Shown: positions 5,214-63,744 of the stretch, piece by piece
Position numbering within the stretch: position 1 is the first letter of the stretch
How the letters are laid out: each line of letters begins with the position of its first letter
DNA from: Candidatus Gastranaerophilales bacterium
GTDB taxonomy: Bacteria > Cyanobacteriota > Vampirovibrionia > Gastranaerophilales > Gastranaerophilaceae
Direction of reading: 5' to 3'
Assembly (NCBI GenBank): GCA_944323655.1
Contig: CALUTL010000030.1
Location: forward strand, 1 to 64,000
Length of the DNA stretch: 64,000 nt
Made by a program: the position numbers and the translations under genes
Notes under the pieces: model-generated
Seen by the model: only the letters and a program-made list of their open reading frames with translations
What the model was told of the DNA's origin: nothing
Database searches by the model: none

Positions 5214-5720
5214 ATGAGTTACAAATTAGAAAAACCATATACAGATGAAGAAAGAGCTAATTTTATTGTAGAGTACAACCATAATAAAGGATTAACAATT
5301 AAGGAGACCTCGACAGCCTTATATGCTCTTGAAGCTTGGGAAAAATTGGAAGGTGAAGTTGTTATTGATAACACAGAAGAATATCAGCAAGAACAAGCAC
5401 AAAAAGAAGCCGAGCGTATTGCAATGTTGAATCTTACAGCCGCCGATGTCGAAAGAGCAATATATAAAGCAAAAGGAATGGACTTTGATGATATTGTTGA
5501 GCTTGTAGAACAATACAACCAAACAGACCCAATGAGCGAAACAGGGGAAAGTACAAGCATTGATATTAAGGCTTTAAAAATTGAATTAAAAGCGAACAAT
5601 TTTTATCGGGGAAACCCTTATATAGATATGGTTGGAACTCTTTTAGGCTTAAGTAAAGAACAGCTTGACGAGTTTTTTGAAACAAACGATTATACAAAAT
5701 TGTTAGCAGAAGAAGATTAA
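5214..5720 (+). CDS. Small phage-type protein downstream of tail fibre
   Basis: 168 residues, acidic, with a strong AGGAGG ribosome site. It begins YKLEKPYTDEERANFIVEYNH and has a Glu/Gln-rich helical centre and an acidic C-terminus (LSKEQLDEFFETNDYTKLLAEED). Similar short proteins follow tail-fibre genes in phages, so a chaperone/assembly or tail-tip role is possible, but this is inference from position. It shares the transcript with the tail-fibre gene and is closed by a 14-bp terminator. Confidence 0.7.
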   Translation: MSYKLEKPYTDEERANFIVEYNHNKGLTIKETSTALYALEAWEKLEGEVVIDNTEEYQQEQAQKEAERIAMLNLTAADVERAIYKAKGMDFDDIVELVEQYNQTDPMSETGESTSIDIKALKIELKANNFYRGNPYIDMVGTLLGLSKEQLDEFFETNDYTKLLAEED

Positions 5721-5738
5721 TTAAATAATTTGAAGTAA

Positions 5739-5775
5739 GGCGGCGGATGTTTTTTAAACATCCGCCGCCATTTTT
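5739..5775 (+). terminator. Strong rho-independent terminator
   Basis: Perfect 14-bp stem (5739-5752 with 5756-5769), GC-rich at its base (ggcggcgg), a 3-base loop and a T-run after it. It closes the two-gene phage-like unit. Confidence 0.92.
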
Positions 5776-5866
5776 AATAACAAAAAAAGTATGTTAAATA
5801 TCTTAACCACAAATACTCTTGTCTTTTTGTTTTTGATACAATTAAGACAACAAGGAGAGAAGAAAA

Positions 5867-7090
5867 ATGGTTGATATACGAGAAGAATTTATAGAACAGG
5901 CAAAAAAACTTTCGCGCGGAGCGGAGGTTTTACCGGGCGGAATTGAAGAATTAGCGGTAAAATTGCAGCACGCAAAGGATACAAACACACCCTTAAGAGT
6001 AAAACTCGGAATGGATCCGACTCGTCCGGATTTACATTTAGGGCACACTGTTGTAATGAGAAAGTTAAGAGAATTTCAAAAACTCGGACATAAAGTTGTT
6101 TTGATTGTCGGAGGTGCAACCGCAATGGTCGGAGATCCTTCAGGCAAATCTGAAACCAGACCGTCTTTAACTAAAGAACAGGTTGAAGAAAACGCAAAAT
6201 CATATTTTGAACAAATGTCAAAAGTTGTAGACGTCACAAAAGCTGAAGTTACAAACAACGCTGACTGGCTTCACAAAATGAGTTTTACAGACTTATTAAA
6301 ACTCGCCTCACAAATAACAGTTGCGCAAATGATGACAAGGGACGATTTTGCAAAAAGATACGCAGAAGGCAGACCGATTTCTGTTCATGAATTTTTCTAC
6401 CCGCTTATGCAGGCTTACGATTCAGTTGCAATAGATGCAGATATAGAACTTGGCGGAACTGATCAAAGATTTAATACTCTTTTAGGCCGCCAGATACAAG
6501 AAGCTTACGGCAAAAAATATCCGCAAATGGTTATGCTTCTGCCCTTAATCGAAGGTACAGACGGGCTTGTCAAGATGTCAAAAACTTATCCTGAACATTG
6601 TATTTCACTGACAGACAGCGCAAATGATATGTTCGGAAAATTGATGAGTATTCCTGATACTTTAATCGTAAAATACTTTATGCTTTTAACTGACGTAAGC
6701 GAAGAAGAATTGAAAAATATCGAAAATTCTTTAAAAGACCCGTCAGTAAACCCACGTGATTTAAAACTTAAACTTGCATACACAATCACTGAAGAATACC
6801 ACGGAAAAGAAGGGGCCGATAAAGCTCAGGCTGAATTTATCAATGTTGTATCCAACAAAGGGCTTCCTTCAGACATTGAGGAAGTAAAAGTTGATATGGG
6901 CAAAAACATTCTCGACCTTCTTGTGGAATTAAACTTCGTTCAAAGCAAAGGTGAAGCAAAACGCTTAATTCAAGGCGGCGGCGTAAAAATTGACGGCGAA
7001 AAGATTGCCGATATGATGTATACCGTAGAATTTGAAGAGAGTGTAATATTACAGGCAGGCAAACGTAAGTTTGCAAAACTTGTAAAATAA
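5867..7090 (+). CDS. tyrS: Tyrosyl-tRNA synthetase
   Basis: Charges tRNA-Tyr. Class I features: HLGH (the HIGH motif) at residues 57-60 after DPTRPDL, KMSKT at 236-240, and a C-terminal S4-type RNA-binding domain at about 340-400 ([14 protein letters not shown]). The 407-residue length and [11 protein letters not shown] fit the bacterial type-2 TyrRS subgroup. An AAGGAGAG ribosome site lies 8 bases before the ATG. An extended -10 (TGA-TACAAT, 5834-5842) lies upstream. cysE follows 29 bases later, probably co-transcribed. Confidence 0.97.
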
Positions 7091-10944: not shown

Positions 10945-12663
10945 ATGGGATTAGCGGCATCACAAGCGAGATTATTAACCATCACGGCAAGAAAATCTGA
11001 CTGTGAATATGAAAGCATGGTGCTTTCACACCAGAAGATAGCCTTGTCTCGTAAAATGAGCCAGCTTTCTGCCGAATACGATGATGCAATTCAGCAGACC
11101 AAATTGATCTACGATTACTACGGTCAAACCAGTGAAACCACGCCTTTAAGTTACAATTTAATGATGACACCATCTGCGATGAACAATTATACTCCGCTTC
11201 TGGTAACAGACAACGGAGGTCGTGTCGTGCTTGACGGAAGATTGGCAAAAGCCGCAAGAGATGCAGGTATACCGCAAGAAGGGTTAGACGGACTTCCATC
11301 CAGTGATATACGTAATGCATTTATTGATTCTCTTGCCTCCACAGGTTATATTTCACAAAATACTGCTGAAAATATTAAGAAAACAACTTACAACCAAATG
11401 GCAGGCGTCGGTTCTTGTGATTTGGTAAACATAAATACAACTGAAGGTACCTTAACCGACTTAATTAATATGGTATCAACTCAGTACTTTGATTTTTCAG
11501 ATATTACTTCATTCTCTAACCAATTTGTTGAAAAAGTATATCTTGAACAACGTAAAAACGGTACTAACCAAACGGCAGGAAACCGCCTCTCATTTGCAGA
11601 TATCTTGAACAATGATTATATGATGATAGCTCAAACCGCAATCGCAGAAGGCAAGTACGGTTTTAACAACTTAACAGTTGATAATGGTACAACTGATACT
11701 CTCAGTAAAATGAGCCTTTGGGATGCTATGTTTGAAACATTTGAAGGTCTGTTAGATACCGGAGATGAATATACTCAAGCAGCTCTTGCTTATGCAAGAA
11801 GAATGATTACCGATATGATTACTAACCTTGGTGAAGGTCAGGATGATGGTACAAGTTACGGTAGCGGACACTATGGTTTGGGTACAGTTGGTACAGAATT
11901 TGGTAACGATTACAGTGAGAATGGTAAAAACATCCACGACAACTTCGGAGATTGGAGATACGTCGGTGAATCAAGCCTTGGCGAGGTACTTGGATGGGCT
12001 CGTGATGACATTTCAGCTGATGTTGTAGGTTTCAACGGTATTTACAACCAAGACTGTACAGGTGGTGCTGAAGATAACGACCATGTAAGATCAGCAGTAA
12101 CTATTAACATTTCAACAATGTTTAAAGCATATTTGACATACTTTGCACAATATATGGAAGGTATCGGAGATTCAAGTTATGAAGTAAATAAAACCAAAAC
12201 AAGTTCTAACTTAATTGATGATATGTTTACATTCACAATAGTTACTGATGTTGATACTTCAGGTGATAACCTTCTTATTGCAGCATATTATGATACTTTG
12301 TTTAACCAAATTTGCTCAAAAGGATGGACAGAAAATGACAAAGTAAATGATAATGAATACTTACATGAATCTCTTAAAAACGGTAATATGTATATATCAA
12401 CCCTTGCCGATGACGGTTATTATTATCAGGGCAACTATGCAACAAACAATTATATCAAAGAGATTACCGACGAAGAATCTATTGCTCAAGCTGAAGCTAA
12501 ATACAACAGAGAAAAAGAAAAACTCAGCTACAAAGAAAATATCCTTGATATGAAGATGAAAAATTTAGATACTGAAATATCCTCACTAACAACAGAATAC
12601 GACACGATTAAATCAGTAATTTCCAAGAACATTGAAAAAGGATTTAAACGATATCAAGCATAA
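10945..12663 (+). CDS. ASQARLL family protein, long paralogue
   Basis: 572 residues. The N-terminus MGLAASQARLLTITARKSD leads into a ~50-residue helix, and the last ~70 residues form another helix (LDTEISSLTTEYDTIKSVISKNIEK). The centre is a large Asn/Thr/Gly-rich region. The gene at 14650-15771 has matching first ~55 and last ~70 residues but a different centre. There is no classical signal peptide. Paired terminal helices around a variable centre recall flagellin/FlgK/FlgL axial proteins, but homology is not established. The AAAGGA ribosome site is unusually far (15 bases) upstream. A terminator follows. Confidence 0.85.
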   Translation: MGLAASQARLLTITARKSDCEYESMVLSHQKIALSRKMSQLSAEYDDAIQQTKLIYDYYGQTSETTPLSYNLMMTPSAMNNYTPLLVTDNGGRVVLDGRLAKAARDAGIPQEGLDGLPSSDIRNAFIDSLASTGYISQNTAENIKKTTYNQMAGVGSCDLVNINTTEGTLTDLINMVSTQYFDFSDITSFSNQFVEKVYLEQRKNGTNQTAGNRLSFADILNNDYMMIAQTAIAEGKYGFNNLTVDNGTTDTLSKMSLWDAMFETFEGLLDTGDEYTQAALAYARRMITDMITNLGEGQDDGTSYGSGHYGLGTVGTEFGNDYSENGKNIHDNFGDWRYVGESSLGEVLGWARDDISADVVGFNGIYNQDCTGGAEDNDHVRSAVTINISTMFKAYLTYFAQYMEGIGDSSYEVNKTKTSSNLIDDMFTFTIVTDVDTSGDNLLIAAYYDTLFNQICSKGWTENDKVNDNEYLHESLKNGNMYISTLADDGYYYQGNYATNNYIKEITDEESIAQAEAKYNREKEKLSYKENILDMKMKNLDTEISSLTTEYDTIKSVISKNIEKGFKRYQA

Positions 12664-14649: not shown

Positions 14650-15771
14650 TTAAGAAAAGATGTTGAAGGTTTTTTCAACGTTCTTTTCAATTACGTTTTT
14701 GACCGAATCATATTCAGTCTGAAGCGCATTATGTTCGGAATCCAGTTTTTGCAGTTCAAGGTCGTACTTGTTATCTAACTGCTCAACTTTTTGCAAATCA
14801 TTTTTATATTTTTGTTCAATAATTGCGATTTCTCTTTCATCTTCAACTTCCTGAATATTTGTATCTTCGGATATTGAAGTAGAAACGAATTTCTTTTCGG
14901 CTGAAGAATAGTATTCAAGCTGCAATTCACCCTTACGAAGCTGTTCTTCAAACCAGGTATTATCTTTAATTGTCATATTCGGATCATCTTCCGTATAATA
15001 ACCCGATTGCTGAATTCGCTGGAAGATATTTGTCAAATATTGAATATATCCGTCATTTTCAGGTTTTGCAGCAGTTTTCAATTCTGTTGCGGAATTTGAA
15101 TCACCATAATAAGCTTCTGTCAAAGCTACTGCATAATCGTAATTCTGACGCTGTTCAGCGGTACTGCCTTCGTAATTCAAAGGAACAGTTTCGCCGTTAA
15201 GCGTGTACGTCGCATAACCGTTAAAGTAACCGGCACCCAGTGAAGTATAACCGAACTCAAGTCCGTGTTCTTCATCTTCAAATTCAAGACCGACTGATGT
15301 CAAATAAACGTCCCAAGCATCGTGTACTTTTTGACGAGCCAGAACCTTATCTTCATCAGTATATCCGCCGGTTGTATTTTTAGTAATATCAATATCGGCC
15401 ATAGAATAACCGAGAGAAGCTAAAAATTTGTTCAAATCTCCGTTGCCTGATTCGTAAGCCTTTGCTATTTCATCTGTTACAAGAACTTTTCCGTCCTTAT
15501 TTGTAACAACATACTGTTTGCCTGCCGCAACAGTATTATAGCCTGTCATTAGACCGTATGAAATATCAGTATAAATTTCTTCCGAATCGTTAAATCCTGT
15601 TAAAACCGTTAATTTTGTTGCATCAAGAGCCGCTAAATAATCAGTATTAAGCTGATCCATCTTATCTGCAAGCTGGATTTTAGCATAAGAAATATCCTGA
15701 CCTGAATTTTCGTTATCGGTCAGTCTTGCCGTAATGCTTAATAGTCTGGCTTGAGAAGCTGTCATTCCCAT
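14650..15771 (-). CDS. ASQARLL family protein, short paralogue
   Basis: 373 residues. MGMTASQARLLSITARLTDNE opens a helix ending LAALDATKL, matching the long paralogue at 10945-12663. The C-terminus (LDSEHNALQTEYDSVKNVIEKNVEKTFNIFS) matches the other's end almost position for position. The ~230-residue centre is unrelated in sequence. As in the other gene, AAAGGA lies unusually far (11 bases) before the ATG. Function unknown; the shared ends suggest a common assembly or secretion role. Confidence 0.85.
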   Translation of the reverse strand: MGMTASQARLLSITARLTDNENSGQDISYAKIQLADKMDQLNTDYLAALDATKLTVLTGFNDSEEIYTDISYGLMTGYNTVAAGKQYVVTNKDGKVLVTDEIAKAYESGNGDLNKFLASLGYSMADIDITKNTTGGYTDEDKVLARQKVHDAWDVYLTSVGLEFEDEEHGLEFGYTSLGAGYFNGYATYTLNGETVPLNYEGSTAEQRQNYDYAVALTEAYYGDSNSATELKTAAKPENDGYIQYLTNIFQRIQQSGYYTEDDPNMTIKDNTWFEEQLRKGELQLEYYSSAEKKFVSTSISEDTNIQEVEDEREIAIIEQKYKNDLQKVEQLDNKYDLELQKLDSEHNALQTEYDSVKNVIEKNVEKTFNIFS

Positions 15772-45478: not shown

Positions 45479-46495
45479 TTAATCAACGTCGCCTTTAATA
45501 ATATTCCAATCCTTTAAAAGCCACTCGCTTGCGTATGGATTAACAACCGTAACTGATTGTTTAGGGCCGTCGGATTTTAATTTAAACCCGTTTGTAAGTT
45601 CAATAAATTGAGCTTTCGGAATTGCAAAGAATGCATCTGCATCCTGCCAAGCATCAGGTGTTGAAAGTGTACCTTTTTCAAATACCTGCCAATTAGATTT
45701 TTTATCATCATTAGAAACCTTAATATCAACTTTTGGTGCCATAATCTTCATTCCAAGCTGGCTTCCGTCTTCTGACAAGTAAACAAGTTGTTTTTCAAAA
45801 GTTTCGTTTTTACCTAATACGACACCTTCAGCTTCGTTATCCCATTTTGTTTTAACTACGTTATAAACAAGGATTTCACCATCTCTTGAGCTTGATTGTC
45901 CGTCAAGATGTCTTTGAACAAACGCACTGTTTTTGTTGTCGTAATAAGACATTGCTATAAAGAATTTACCGTCACCGTTCTGCTCAATCCCTAAGTCATC
46001 ATAAATTTCTTCTTGCTTAGGCGGAACAGGAGAAGTCCAATCAGGCTTCATCCAAACAGTATCACCTTTAACATATACTGTATCCCATTTTATAATTGGC
46101 GGTTTTTCTATGTAAACAGTATCGTGCTTTATTATAGGTGGTTTTTCAATGTAAATAGTATCTGGTCCTACTACAACTGTATCTGGCGGCTGAGGAACAG
46201 GAACTTCCTGTATTATTGTATCAGTTTTACCAGGAACTTCTTTTTCTATAACTATTACTTGAGGTGGAACTGGTGTAGGAACCAATTCTGTTTTTACAAA
46301 AGTATCAGTCGGAAGATCAAAATAATGATTGTGTTCTACATTTAATTTATCGCATCCGCCAACTGCCGCAGAAAGTGCCGTTGCAAGCATTATAGCTTTT
46401 GTTGCTTTTTGCATTGAATTATCGGCCTTTTTGTTATTTTCTGAACCGAATGTCAATGGATTTGAGTTATAAAAATTTATCGAATTAACTCGCAT
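45479..46495 (-). CDS. Lipoprotein-like protein with long N-region and DTVY repeats
   Basis: 338 residues. The start has a perfect GGAGG site. The N-terminus MRVNSINFYNSNPLTFG is followed at 31-48 by a hydrophobic stretch ending in a lipobox-like AVGGC (Cys 48), so the n-region is unusually long (~30 residues). A Pro-rich repeat segment (DTIYIEKPPIIK, DTVYIEKPPIIK, DTVYVKG) spans about 100-150, then a ~180-residue beta-rich domain. An internal ATG at codon 28 would give a normal lipoprotein but lacks a good ribosome site. Function unknown. Confidence 0.8.
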   Translation of the reverse strand: MRVNSINFYNSNPLTFGSENNKKADNSMQKATKAIMLATALSAAVGGCDKLNVEHNHYFDLPTDTFVKTELVPTPVPPQVIVIEKEVPGKTDTIIQEVPVPQPPDTVVVGPDTIYIEKPPIIKHDTVYIEKPPIIKWDTVYVKGDTVWMKPDWTSPVPPKQEEIYDDLGIEQNGDGKFFIAMSYYDNKNSAFVQRHLDGQSSSRDGEILVYNVVKTKWDNEAEGVVLGKNETFEKQLVYLSEDGSQLGMKIMAPKVDIKVSNDDKKSNWQVFEKGTLSTPDAWQDADAFFAIPKAQFIELTNGFKLKSDGPKQSVTVVNPYASEWLLKDWNIIKGDVD

Positions 46496-61278: not shown

Positions 61279-61312
61279 AAACAAGATGTTTTATTTTAAA
61301 AACATCTTGTTT
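61279..61312. terminator. Terminator between gyrA and the small EF-hand-like gene
   Basis: 14-bp stem (61279-61292 with 61299-61312) around aaacaagatgtttt. It overlaps the stop of the minus-strand gene and lies 26 bases after the gyrA stop. Confidence 0.75.
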
Positions 61313-61707
61313 AAATTTTGTATGTCTTTTTTGAACCATTCACCTATTGTATTATTTTTTGAGCCATATGCATTACTCATTTTATAGTTATTTAAATCTC
61401 CAGCACCATTATGTCTTTTTACTGTTTCAAAACCCGTCCAGTCGCTTTCGATAACTTCATCATAATGCCCGTCATTATCTAAATCTCTATATTCTCTTGT
61501 ATTAGCTGATTTTGAATTTACATCATAAAATTTTATTGAAACAGCTTCTGACATATCATATTTACCGTCTTTATTTCTGTCTTCAAATAATGTCCTTTTT
61601 ATAACTTGACCAGCTTCATTGTACAAAGTTTCAGTTCTCTTGCCGTTATTTCCCGAAACCTCTACCCTTTTAGCTACATAAGCATTCTTAGGTAATATTA
61701 ATCCCAT
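61291..61707 (-). CDS. Small protein with two EF-hand-like loops
   Basis: 138 residues from ATG 61707, with AAGGAG just upstream (an ATG at 61725 lies before this site). Two calcium-loop-like motifs, DRNKDGKYD and DLDNDGHYD, lie ~35 residues apart (D-x-[DN]-x-D-G). There is no signal peptide. The YNEAG and DG motifs recall the repeat protein at the left edge. Divergent from the radical-SAM gene. Function unknown. Confidence 0.75.
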   Translation of the reverse strand: MGLILPKNAYVAKRVEVSGNNGKRTETLYNEAGQVIKRTLFEDRNKDGKYDMSEAVSIKFYDVNSKSANTREYRDLDNDGHYDEVIESDWTGFETVKRHNGAGDLNNYKMSNAYGSKNNTIGEWFKKDIQNLNKMFLK

Positions 61708-61817
61708 AATAAATCTCCTTTCCAAATATCCCCATTTATTGCATATTTATATAAAAAATATTTAATAAAATTAATTGACTAATTTTTTTTGGAGATTTAC
61801 ATTCTGTTACATTTAGC

Positions 61818-61849: not shown

Positions 61850-63331
61850 ATGAGAATTACCGCAAATTATTACTACGGAAATATTAATAAAAACGGCATT
61901 GTTCCATGTAACAAGGGCCAACAAACCCCTAAGCAAAACTATTTTTCTCCCTCCGTCAGCTCTCCAACCTCCAACATGCCTGCATTTGAAGGCAGTTTAA
62001 CAAAAAATATTATAGAGTATTTGAACTTTTTAAAAGTTAAAAAATACGCAAAAATTGTTGAAAAAGAGCTTGCAAATGAACCTAACGGAGACAAATTTCT
62101 TTTCAGAAATCTAAGTATGGAAGCAATGGAAGGAATTCAATACGGAATCGAAGTTTTCAAAGGGCTTTCGATGAAAGATATTCAATATATGAGCGAAAAC
62201 CTTCACGTTATTGCAGTTAAAAGAGGTTGCAAAAACATGTGCGGATATTGTTATGCTGACGCAAAGCCTTCAAACAGAGAAATGTCCTGGGAGGATTTCA
62301 AACTAATCACAGACGGATACAAAAAACTTAGAAAACGGCTTGGAAATCTGCCTTTATTTGGCGAAAATATGACCTCCGGAAATGATACCCTATTATACAG
62401 ATCAACTGAGCTTTTTTACGATTCCGATTGTATTGATATTGCAATAAAGGATAAAAAAGGCAATATTTACGACTTTACAAAACTTTCAAGCGAGTTATAC
62501 AATTCATTAGGCAGAAGAACAGTTTTTGACACTTCCGGCTGGGATCCGAACAATAAAAAGCTTCAAGAACGTGCCGAAAAATATGCTGAATATTTTTCAA
62601 AACCTGAAAATATGGCACAGCTGAATGCCTTCAGTCTTTCGTTCAACTGTTTTAACGCAACTTATATCGCAGCGGTTAAAGCTCTAAAAAACGGGGATAA
62701 AGAAAAATATTTAAGACTTAAAAACAAATTCACCGACAGAATTGCAAATGCATTGTATACTTTCACCCCGCTTGTTAAGGATAAAAAATTTAATGTAATG
62801 ACAAGAAGCTTCGGAGATAACGCAAAAAATGCCCACTATTTTGATTTTTCAACAATGTTTGAGCTTGGCACTGATGTTCTTAACAAGCTTGCGAAAATGT
62901 ACTCTAATGACTTAAAAGGTGAACAAAAATATGTCAAATCTAACGCCGAAATTGAGAATCTGATAAATTTATATTTTTCCAAAATTTATAAATTTGATGC
63001 TAATTTAAATTCTTCAGGCAGGATGGGAAAATTTATGCGGGATTTTAAAATAACAGCCCCGATGCAAGACCACACTGAATCCACCGTTATTATGGCACAG
63101 GATTTAAAAACCGGCGGAAGATACCACAGGTATTTAGGGATGAAGCTTATTGATACTGACGGAAAAGTTTATCACATGGATTACGCAAGATTCTTCCCGA
63201 CCGAAATCCAACTTAACTTAAAAAATAAATCTGAGACTCCAAAACTTGCAAATTTAAGAGAAGATTTCCCGATATCAAAAGAAGACATAAACCGCAAAGA
63301 AGTACTCCGAGATATTTCCGATTTTATATAA
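61850..63331 (+). CDS. Unusual radical-SAM-like protein
   Basis: 493 residues. A low-complexity N-terminal ~45 residues carries NMPAFEG (43-48), then a helical region, then VKRGCKNMCGYCYADAKP with CxxxCxxC (Cys 127, 131, 134), the 4Fe-4S signature of radical-SAM enzymes. A GENMTSGND segment may correspond to the SAM-contacting GGE region. The rest lacks recognisable SPASM Cys clusters. The length and order match no common radical-SAM family I recognise. The GGGG before the start is weakly placed. Substrate unknown; the neighbouring EF-hand-like protein is a speculative partner. Confidence 0.75.
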   Translation: MRITANYYYGNINKNGIVPCNKGQQTPKQNYFSPSVSSPTSNMPAFEGSLTKNIIEYLNFLKVKKYAKIVEKELANEPNGDKFLFRNLSMEAMEGIQYGIEVFKGLSMKDIQYMSENLHVIAVKRGCKNMCGYCYADAKPSNREMSWEDFKLITDGYKKLRKRLGNLPLFGENMTSGNDTLLYRSTELFYDSDCIDIAIKDKKGNIYDFTKLSSELYNSLGRRTVFDTSGWDPNNKKLQERAEKYAEYFSKPENMAQLNAFSLSFNCFNATYIAAVKALKNGDKEKYLRLKNKFTDRIANALYTFTPLVKDKKFNVMTRSFGDNAKNAHYFDFSTMFELGTDVLNKLAKMYSNDLKGEQKYVKSNAEIENLINLYFSKIYKFDANLNSSGRMGKFMRDFKITAPMQDHTESTVIMAQDLKTGGRYHRYLGMKLIDTDGKVYHMDYARFFPTEIQLNLKNKSETPKLANLREDFPISKEDINRKEVLRDISDFI

Positions 63332-63336
63332 AATCC

Positions 63337-63744
63337 TTACTTAACCCAAAATTCGTTCATAGTCAAAGGGGTTCTGGGGTTGTCACGCGAAAAAACCTGC
63401 ATTACATAATTGCCGGACTGATTTATTACGATATAATCGTCATAATAGTAAATCTGTTCGTCCTTTAATCTTATGTCCTTACCGTAATAAACCTTATACC
63501 CCAGTCTGCCGTAATCGTTATCTTTTTTGACGATTTGCAGATACATAAATCTTGAATGAATTTTCTGAGGCATAACAACAAGATAATAAATTCTTGTACC
63601 TCTTTCAAAAACCTGCTCATGACCCATTACAGTGTCAACGGTTATCGGATATTTGTTAAAAAGTATTCCGGGTTTTTCCTCATCACAAGCTGTCGTGAAA
63701 AGCATTATGAATAATATACAGACCGTAAATAAAATCTTTCGCAT
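63337..63744 (-). CDS. Lipoprotein, hypothetical
   Basis: 135 residues. The signal peptide ends with the lipobox FTTAC (Cys 20). The mature part is beta-rich (RIYYLVVMPQKIHSRFMYLQIV, QIYYYDDYIVINQSGNYVMQVFS) and ends in a single compact domain. Its ATG overlaps the stop of the upstream TPR gene (TAATG), so the two are co-translated. Function unknown. Confidence 0.85.
   Translation of the reverse strand: MRKILFTVCILFIMLFTTACDEEKPGILFNKYPITVDTVMGHEQVFERGTRIYYLVVMPQKIHSRFMYLQIVKKDNDYGRLGYKVYYGKDIRLKDEQIYYYDDYIVINQSGNYVMQVFSRDNPRTPLTMNEFWVK

Follow-up and report, generated by a model that had tools for sequence, protein, structure and literature searches.

A radical-SAM family restricted to the Gastranaerophilales combines a SPASM/twitch-like predicted fold with the absence of auxiliary-cluster cysteines and carries a recurrent N-terminal tag

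Does the open reading frame at positions 61850-63331 of the window, the whole analysed stretch of 64,000 nucleotides from a Candidatus Gastranaerophilales genome, encode a radical-SAM (rSAM) enzyme of a kind not yet described, and on what might such an enzyme act? Gastranaerophilales is an order of gut bacteria that are related to the cyanobacteria but do not photosynthesise, and we found no published work on rSAM enzymes or N-terminal tags in this order. The gene is present in single copy in the source genome (G000; 1.95 Mb in 33 contigs), starts with ATG and encodes 493 amino acids on the plus strand. Compared with four same-genus orthologues, residues 49-493 show a dN/dS of 0.066-0.086; being below 0.1, these values indicate strong purifying selection and not a chance reading frame. 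Since both flanking genes (61291-61725 and 63337-63744) lie on the opposite, minus strand, across spacers of 125 bp and 5 bp, the gene is monocistronic, in agreement with an earlier reading made from the letters of the DNA (the sequence-only reading). An Rfam search around the gene gave no match.

rSAM enzymes use a [4Fe-4S] cluster to split SAM reductively into methionine and a 5'-deoxyadenosyl radical, which abstracts a hydrogen atom. The CX3CX2C motif reported earlier at residues 127-134 is present (C127, C131 and C134; 62228-62251, plus strand) and invariant in 46/46 aligned members, its cysteines being the predicted ligands of the SAM-cleaving cluster; D191, G230, W231, Q239, S264, N300, G438 and N456 are also invariant in the 46. 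Pfam Radical_SAM (PF04055) covers residues 124-300 with an E of 1.2e-5 and 26.0 bits versus a cut-off of 29.5, and 17 of 22 family members match it at E <= 0.1. PF04055 occurs at 20 places in the source genome, of which this one is the weakest and the sole one below the cut-off. With the Pfam score under its cut-off, membership of the superfamily rests on motif and fold together; the sequence evidence alone is thin, and the family-wide conservation is strong. No Pfam or NCBIfam subgroup fits, which leaves the protein outside the known rSAM subgroups, as the sequence-only reading had proposed: the best E over all members tested against the NCBIfam rSAM subgroups is 1.5e-4, and the best score of the window protein is 16.9 bits versus a cut-off of 370. 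Two assignments were tried and rejected, namely a MiaB/RimO methylthiotransferase (TIGR00089, 11.3 bits versus a cut-off of 251, the cluster motif alone matching) and the HxsB and CXXX-maturase families, which score far under their cut-offs with the match limited to the cluster motif. A PDB sequence search returned nothing with the window protein and, with the family profile, nothing beyond the cluster motif of MiaB (E about 1). Aligned by hhalign to the SPASM proteins of relatives, the family paired at the cluster motif, at TSGW with SNG and at the beta4 strand; this pairing has a probability of 54%, and the hhalign probabilities to SPASM proteins are 54-63% in all. Domain searches gave no SPASM or B12-binding features, as had been stated; for the B12-binding domain, no Pfam match was found in the window protein or in any member of alignment A1. 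Taken together, these results make it almost certain that 61850-63331 encodes a true rSAM enzyme belonging to an undescribed family, with cluster binding and SAM cleavage predicted. The superfamily itself is known; this family has not been described previously.

AlphaFold2 predicted the whole length with a pLDDT of 82.8 (22 sequences) and the core, residues 81-493, with a pLDDT of 93.4 and a pTM of 0.91 (46 sequences). Strands 118-124, 187-189, 223-228, 258-266 and 314-319 alternate with helices, and the alternation over residues 118-356 in the pLDDT 93 model forms a partial TIM barrel, (beta/alpha)5-6, to which short strand residues near 381-387 may contribute a sixth strand. The structure prediction suggested by the sequence-only reading thus returned the rSAM fold around the cluster, and a model lacking the barrel did not occur. 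When the core was compared with known structures by VIA-align, rSAM enzymes made up all of the best 50 matches listed, led by EpeE (8ai6; Z 13.0, rmsd 5.0, 246 aligned) and SkfB (Z 12.0) and followed by ChlB (10.6), GDGT-MAS (10.6), SuiB (10.4), DesII (9.9) and a viperin-like enzyme (9.9); the leaders were unchanged with the whole-length model. Foldseek, weaker than VIA-align, placed DesII first (E 3.8e-5) with SuiB also leading, and a viral structure library gave generic rSAM matches only. The description of the architecture as unfamiliar was therefore too strong, because the core aligns over nearly its full length with SPASM/twitch-type rSAM enzymes.

The conserved motifs can be placed on this fold. 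The cluster loop comes after beta1. After beta2, at the position where rSAM enzymes usually carry GGE, as judged from the predicted secondary structure, stands DSDC (D191-C194; 62420-62431, plus strand), in which D191 is conserved in 46/46, D193 in 44/46 and C194, a candidate hydrogen-atom donor, in 37/46 members. After beta3, TSGW (residues 228-231; 62531-62542, plus strand), with invariant G230 and W231 and paired with SNG by hhalign at modest probability, is the putative equivalent of the TNG motif of SPASM-type rSAM enzymes. FYDSDC would thus occupy the GGE place, TSGW the TNG place and an LSFN stretch the SxD place. Towards the C-terminus, a twitch-like hairpin without cysteines spans I434-N456 (IDTDGKVYHMDY...PTEIQLN; 63149-63217, plus strand), with strands 431-434, 439-443 and 448-454 and invariant G438 and N456. 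The hairpin strands (431-454) fall inside the range aligned with EpeE and SkfB, and the hhalign alignment ends before them. The hairpin bears I-D-x-D-G-x-V-Y, resembling the start of a SPASM/twitch domain, and the cysteine expected next is absent. No family-wide cysteine exists outside CX3CX2C among the 46 members, C194 being present in 37, so that the lack of auxiliary-cluster cysteines holds across the family; an RRE-like peptide-binding domain is likewise absent from the predicted secondary structure. Twitch domains are defined by one bound auxiliary cluster and SPASM domains by two (PMC9012708). Having no auxiliary-cluster cysteines, the family falls outside SPASM/twitch by definition, though its predicted shape is alike, and a taxon-restricted family with a SPASM/twitch-like fold minus these cysteines offers a natural test of the need for the clusters.

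The family profile matches 67 of 241 Gastranaerophilales genomes, at one to four places each. Outside the order, a phylum-wide sample of 386 genomes yielded a single match, a 54-position fragment with E 9e-7, and no relatives were found in phages, plasmids or viral contigs. The family is thus restricted to the order Gastranaerophilales, with no convincing match in the rest of the phylum sample. The site of the gene is stable within a genus (beside gyrA in the window) and differs among genera, where it lies beside dnaN, recA, fumarase and others. Across 50 loci, no neighbour is conserved across genera and no precursor peptide gene is adjacent; in the window, a conserved precursor gene would not fit into the spacers of 125 bp and 5 bp. 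At one locus (L143), a 214-aa protein (5351-5995, plus strand) is encoded 6 bp upstream of an rSAM paralogue and shows a spaced Cys/His/Asp pattern like that of a cysteine peptidase or transglutaminase, with no Pfam match.

Comparison with known systems bears on the second part of the question. The best structural match, covering the core end to end at 11% identity, is EpeE (YydG), the Bacillus subtilis peptide epimerase (PDB 8ai1-8ai6). Common to both are CX3CX2C and, in most family members, one candidate cysteine hydrogen donor, C194, which may be the counterpart of EpeE Cys223. However, EpeE has two [4Fe-4S] clusters (PMC8326336), whereas the family lacks auxiliary-cluster cysteines; EpeE has an adjacent precursor gene, whereas no peptide is encoded next to the family genes; and, unlike EpeE, the family begins with 120 residues that include a disordered tag. 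The SPASM/twitch RiPP maturases SkfB, ChlB and SuiB are alike in the rSAM barrel and probably in the C-terminal hairpin (Z 10-12) but differ in having the SPASM cysteines and RRE domain that are missing here, the latter in prediction. PoyD-type proteusin epimerases (TIGR04517) resemble the family in their single [4Fe-4S] cluster and in a conserved cysteine outside the cluster (PMC8326336), yet only one member reaches E 0.007 against TIGR04517, and the PoyD-type C-terminal RRE and adjacent nitrile-hydratase-leader precursor are not seen in the family. Viperin, DesII and GDGT-MAS share the barrel and are weaker structural matches than EpeE; viperin, like the family, has no auxiliary cluster.

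On balance, we lean towards a new, order-restricted family of catalytically competent rSAM enzymes that would act on a peptide or protein in trans without an auxiliary cluster. As a plausible mechanism, the [4Fe-4S] cluster would reductively cleave SAM, and the 5'-deoxyadenosyl radical would abstract a hydrogen atom from a peptide or protein whose gene lies elsewhere; the outcome would probably be redox-neutral, e.g., C-alpha epimerisation with C194 as a possible hydrogen donor in most members, or another electron acceptor would be used. A peptide or protein substrate, which we consider an even call, is suggested by the peptide maturases that head the structural matches. A redox-neutral outcome is suggested more weakly, since in oxidative SPASM/twitch enzymes the electron is believed to pass to an auxiliary cluster (PMC9012708), which this family is not expected to have. 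A cysteine serves catalysis in the epimerases EpeE and PoyD, of which PoyD has only the SAM cluster (PMC8326336); an epimerisation-like reaction in the present family is a speculative suggestion. Against the peptide reading, no substrate or precursor gene lies beside the rSAM gene, an RRE-like domain is missing from the prediction, the hhalign probabilities to SPASM proteins are modest, C194 is missing in 9/46 members, and small-molecule rSAM enzymes (viperin-like, DesII, GDGT-MAS) match at Z 9.4-10.6. Small-molecule chemistry is accordingly a serious rival, in which the enzyme would act on a nucleotide, sugar or lipid like viperin, DesII and GDGT-MAS, as a solitary metabolic step. A solitary gene with no precursor peptide would suit this role, as would the lack of an auxiliary cluster, as in viperin, the VIA-align scores of viperin (Z 9.2-9.9), DesII (Z 9.9) and GDGT-MAS (Z 10.6), and the first place of DesII in Foldseek. 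However, the peptide maturases EpeE and SkfB stand 2-3 Z units above the small-molecule enzymes at equal coverage, and up to four diverging paralogues per genome better suit varied macromolecular targets than one metabolic step. We consider a small-molecule substrate less likely than a peptide or protein.

The N-terminus provides the most novel lead from this gene. As the sequence-only reading had proposed, it is disordered (residues 1-47 with pLDDT <50) and carries PAFEG at residues 44-48. The segment (61850-61993, plus strand) forms a bipartite tag with an MRI start and an N/Q/Y/S/P-rich linker that ends in PAFEG, and the corresponding pattern, M[KRQ][IV]-(N/Q/Y/P/S/T-rich)-[PVI][SNA]FxG/A/S, is found in 47/50 family members. 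The linker varies, with an excess of N, Q, Y, P, S and T and a shortage of E, G and M; nearly every member has the end [PVI][SNA]F[GKT][GAS]. We built a tag matrix on the rSAM family only and ran it on 922 proteins from outside the family, each 150 aa or longer, taken from three genomes and the rSAM neighbourhoods, the counts thus referring to sampled stretches and not to full proteomes. There were 31 N-terminal matches versus 12 internal ones. An M[KRQNIL][IVL] start accompanies 20/31 N-terminal matches versus 99/891 other proteins (odds ratio 14.5, Fisher p 9e-12; p 8e-10 with one protein per homology cluster), p-values that are somewhat optimistic because the start pattern was chosen after the family and some tagged proteins had been seen. 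Internal matches show no such link (1/12, p 1.0). The 20 tagged non-family proteins belong to 20 different homology clusters, and the resemblance in style between PAFEG and other proteins, noted earlier, is therefore a real, statistically supported tag. It is present in sampled genomes of two Gastranaerophilales families and absent (0/133) from a single genome of a different order. Among the tagged proteins are a CheR-like methyltransferase and an ankyrin protein (both weak matches) and membrane-like pairs; tagged proteins are not enriched near rSAM genes (7/293 versus 14/630 elsewhere, the 630 including the window protein). Further examples are encoded at 45479-46495 of the window (minus strand), L092 7693-8736, L101 16321-17397, L132 7173-12016, L151 5498-7185 and L162 7165-9061; the tagged protein at L128 7299-8639 (minus strand) consists largely of near-identical leucine-rich-like repeats (TNLGNLKSIGG...). 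Two otherwise different window proteins (10945-12663, plus strand; 14650-15771, minus strand) have in common another N-terminal signature, MG[LM][TA]ASQARLL[ST]ITAR, and similar coiled C-terminal ends.

The disordered tag would play no catalytic part and would instead place the rSAM enzyme together with other tagged proteins. In a tag-less rSAM subclade (G006 and G007), the rSAM gene immediately follows the genes of a tagged ankyrin protein and a tagged 239-aa protein, the gaps being 2-3 bp. This gene row of ankyrin-like protein, 239-aa protein and tag-less rSAM paralogue is conserved in both genomes (L132 5995-9238 in G007; L014 1129-3748 in G006; minus strand), the N-terminus of the G006 ankyrin protein being outside the stretch read. 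Of the partner candidates found for the family, the tagged 239-aa protein is the best. As a tentative proposal, an undescribed, order-wide bipartite N-terminal address tag may gather unrelated proteins at one place or machinery, of which the rSAM enzyme would modify the tagged set without an auxiliary cluster, with the partners in G006 and G007 supplying the tag in trans. The recurrent tag comes to light in gut bacteria that have hardly been studied by experiment; if it is a sorting signal, it would link dozens of unknown proteins to one system, and their location could be tested by a simple reporter fusion. The tag could also be an export or translocation signal, by which the rSAM protein would leave the cell with other tagged proteins; disordered N/Q/S/T/P-rich N-termini on unrelated proteins, including the ankyrin-repeat protein and the CheR-like methyltransferase, and a flagellar-type export gate, FlhA, encoded in the genome are consistent with this. 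Export is nevertheless improbable: it would hardly suit an enzyme that is sensitive to oxygen and depends on reductant and SAM from inside the cell, some tagged proteins resemble membrane proteins, and no TraG/VirB4-type ATPase was found in the source genome. The full FlhA of G000 is encoded at C1:253986-255974, and two more proteins (G000:C7:13353-14396 and G000:C2:139426-140358) match only the C-terminal half of FHIPEP.

A strict SPASM/twitch RiPP maturase, complete with auxiliary cluster and neighbouring precursor, would agree with the best fold matches being RiPP maturases and with the DGKVY stretch, which resembles the SPASM GxxxPC start. It is nevertheless very improbable: C194, in 37/46 members, is the only conserved cysteine beyond CX3CX2C, the SPASM Pfam model gives no match in the window protein though it finds SPASM in 29/40 relatives, and the 125 bp and 5 bp spacers are too small for a conserved precursor gene.

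The divergent neighbour (61291-61725, minus strand), a small protein with the EF-hand-like loops DRNKDGKYD and DLDNDGHYD, had been put forward as a substrate or partner. An obligate two-gene system with it, suggested by divergent neighbouring genes in five same-genus genomes, is refuted by the presence/absence pattern, since each gene occurs without the other: the EF-hand-like gene, confined to 7 genomes of one genus, is lacking at L024 and L027 and in other genera, and the rSAM gene is lacking at an empty site in G006 (L200), where gyrA, the EF-hand-like gene, 165 bp and a lipoprotein gene follow one another. Surveyed over its neighbourhoods, the rSAM gene stands without an EF-hand-like gene beside it at L024, L026, L027 and in all other genera, so that the association is not conserved outside one genus and the EF-hand-like protein lies outside the rSAM system. 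On the other side, the convergent small putative lipoprotein gene (63337-63744, minus strand) occurs with and without the rSAM gene and reflects local synteny only.
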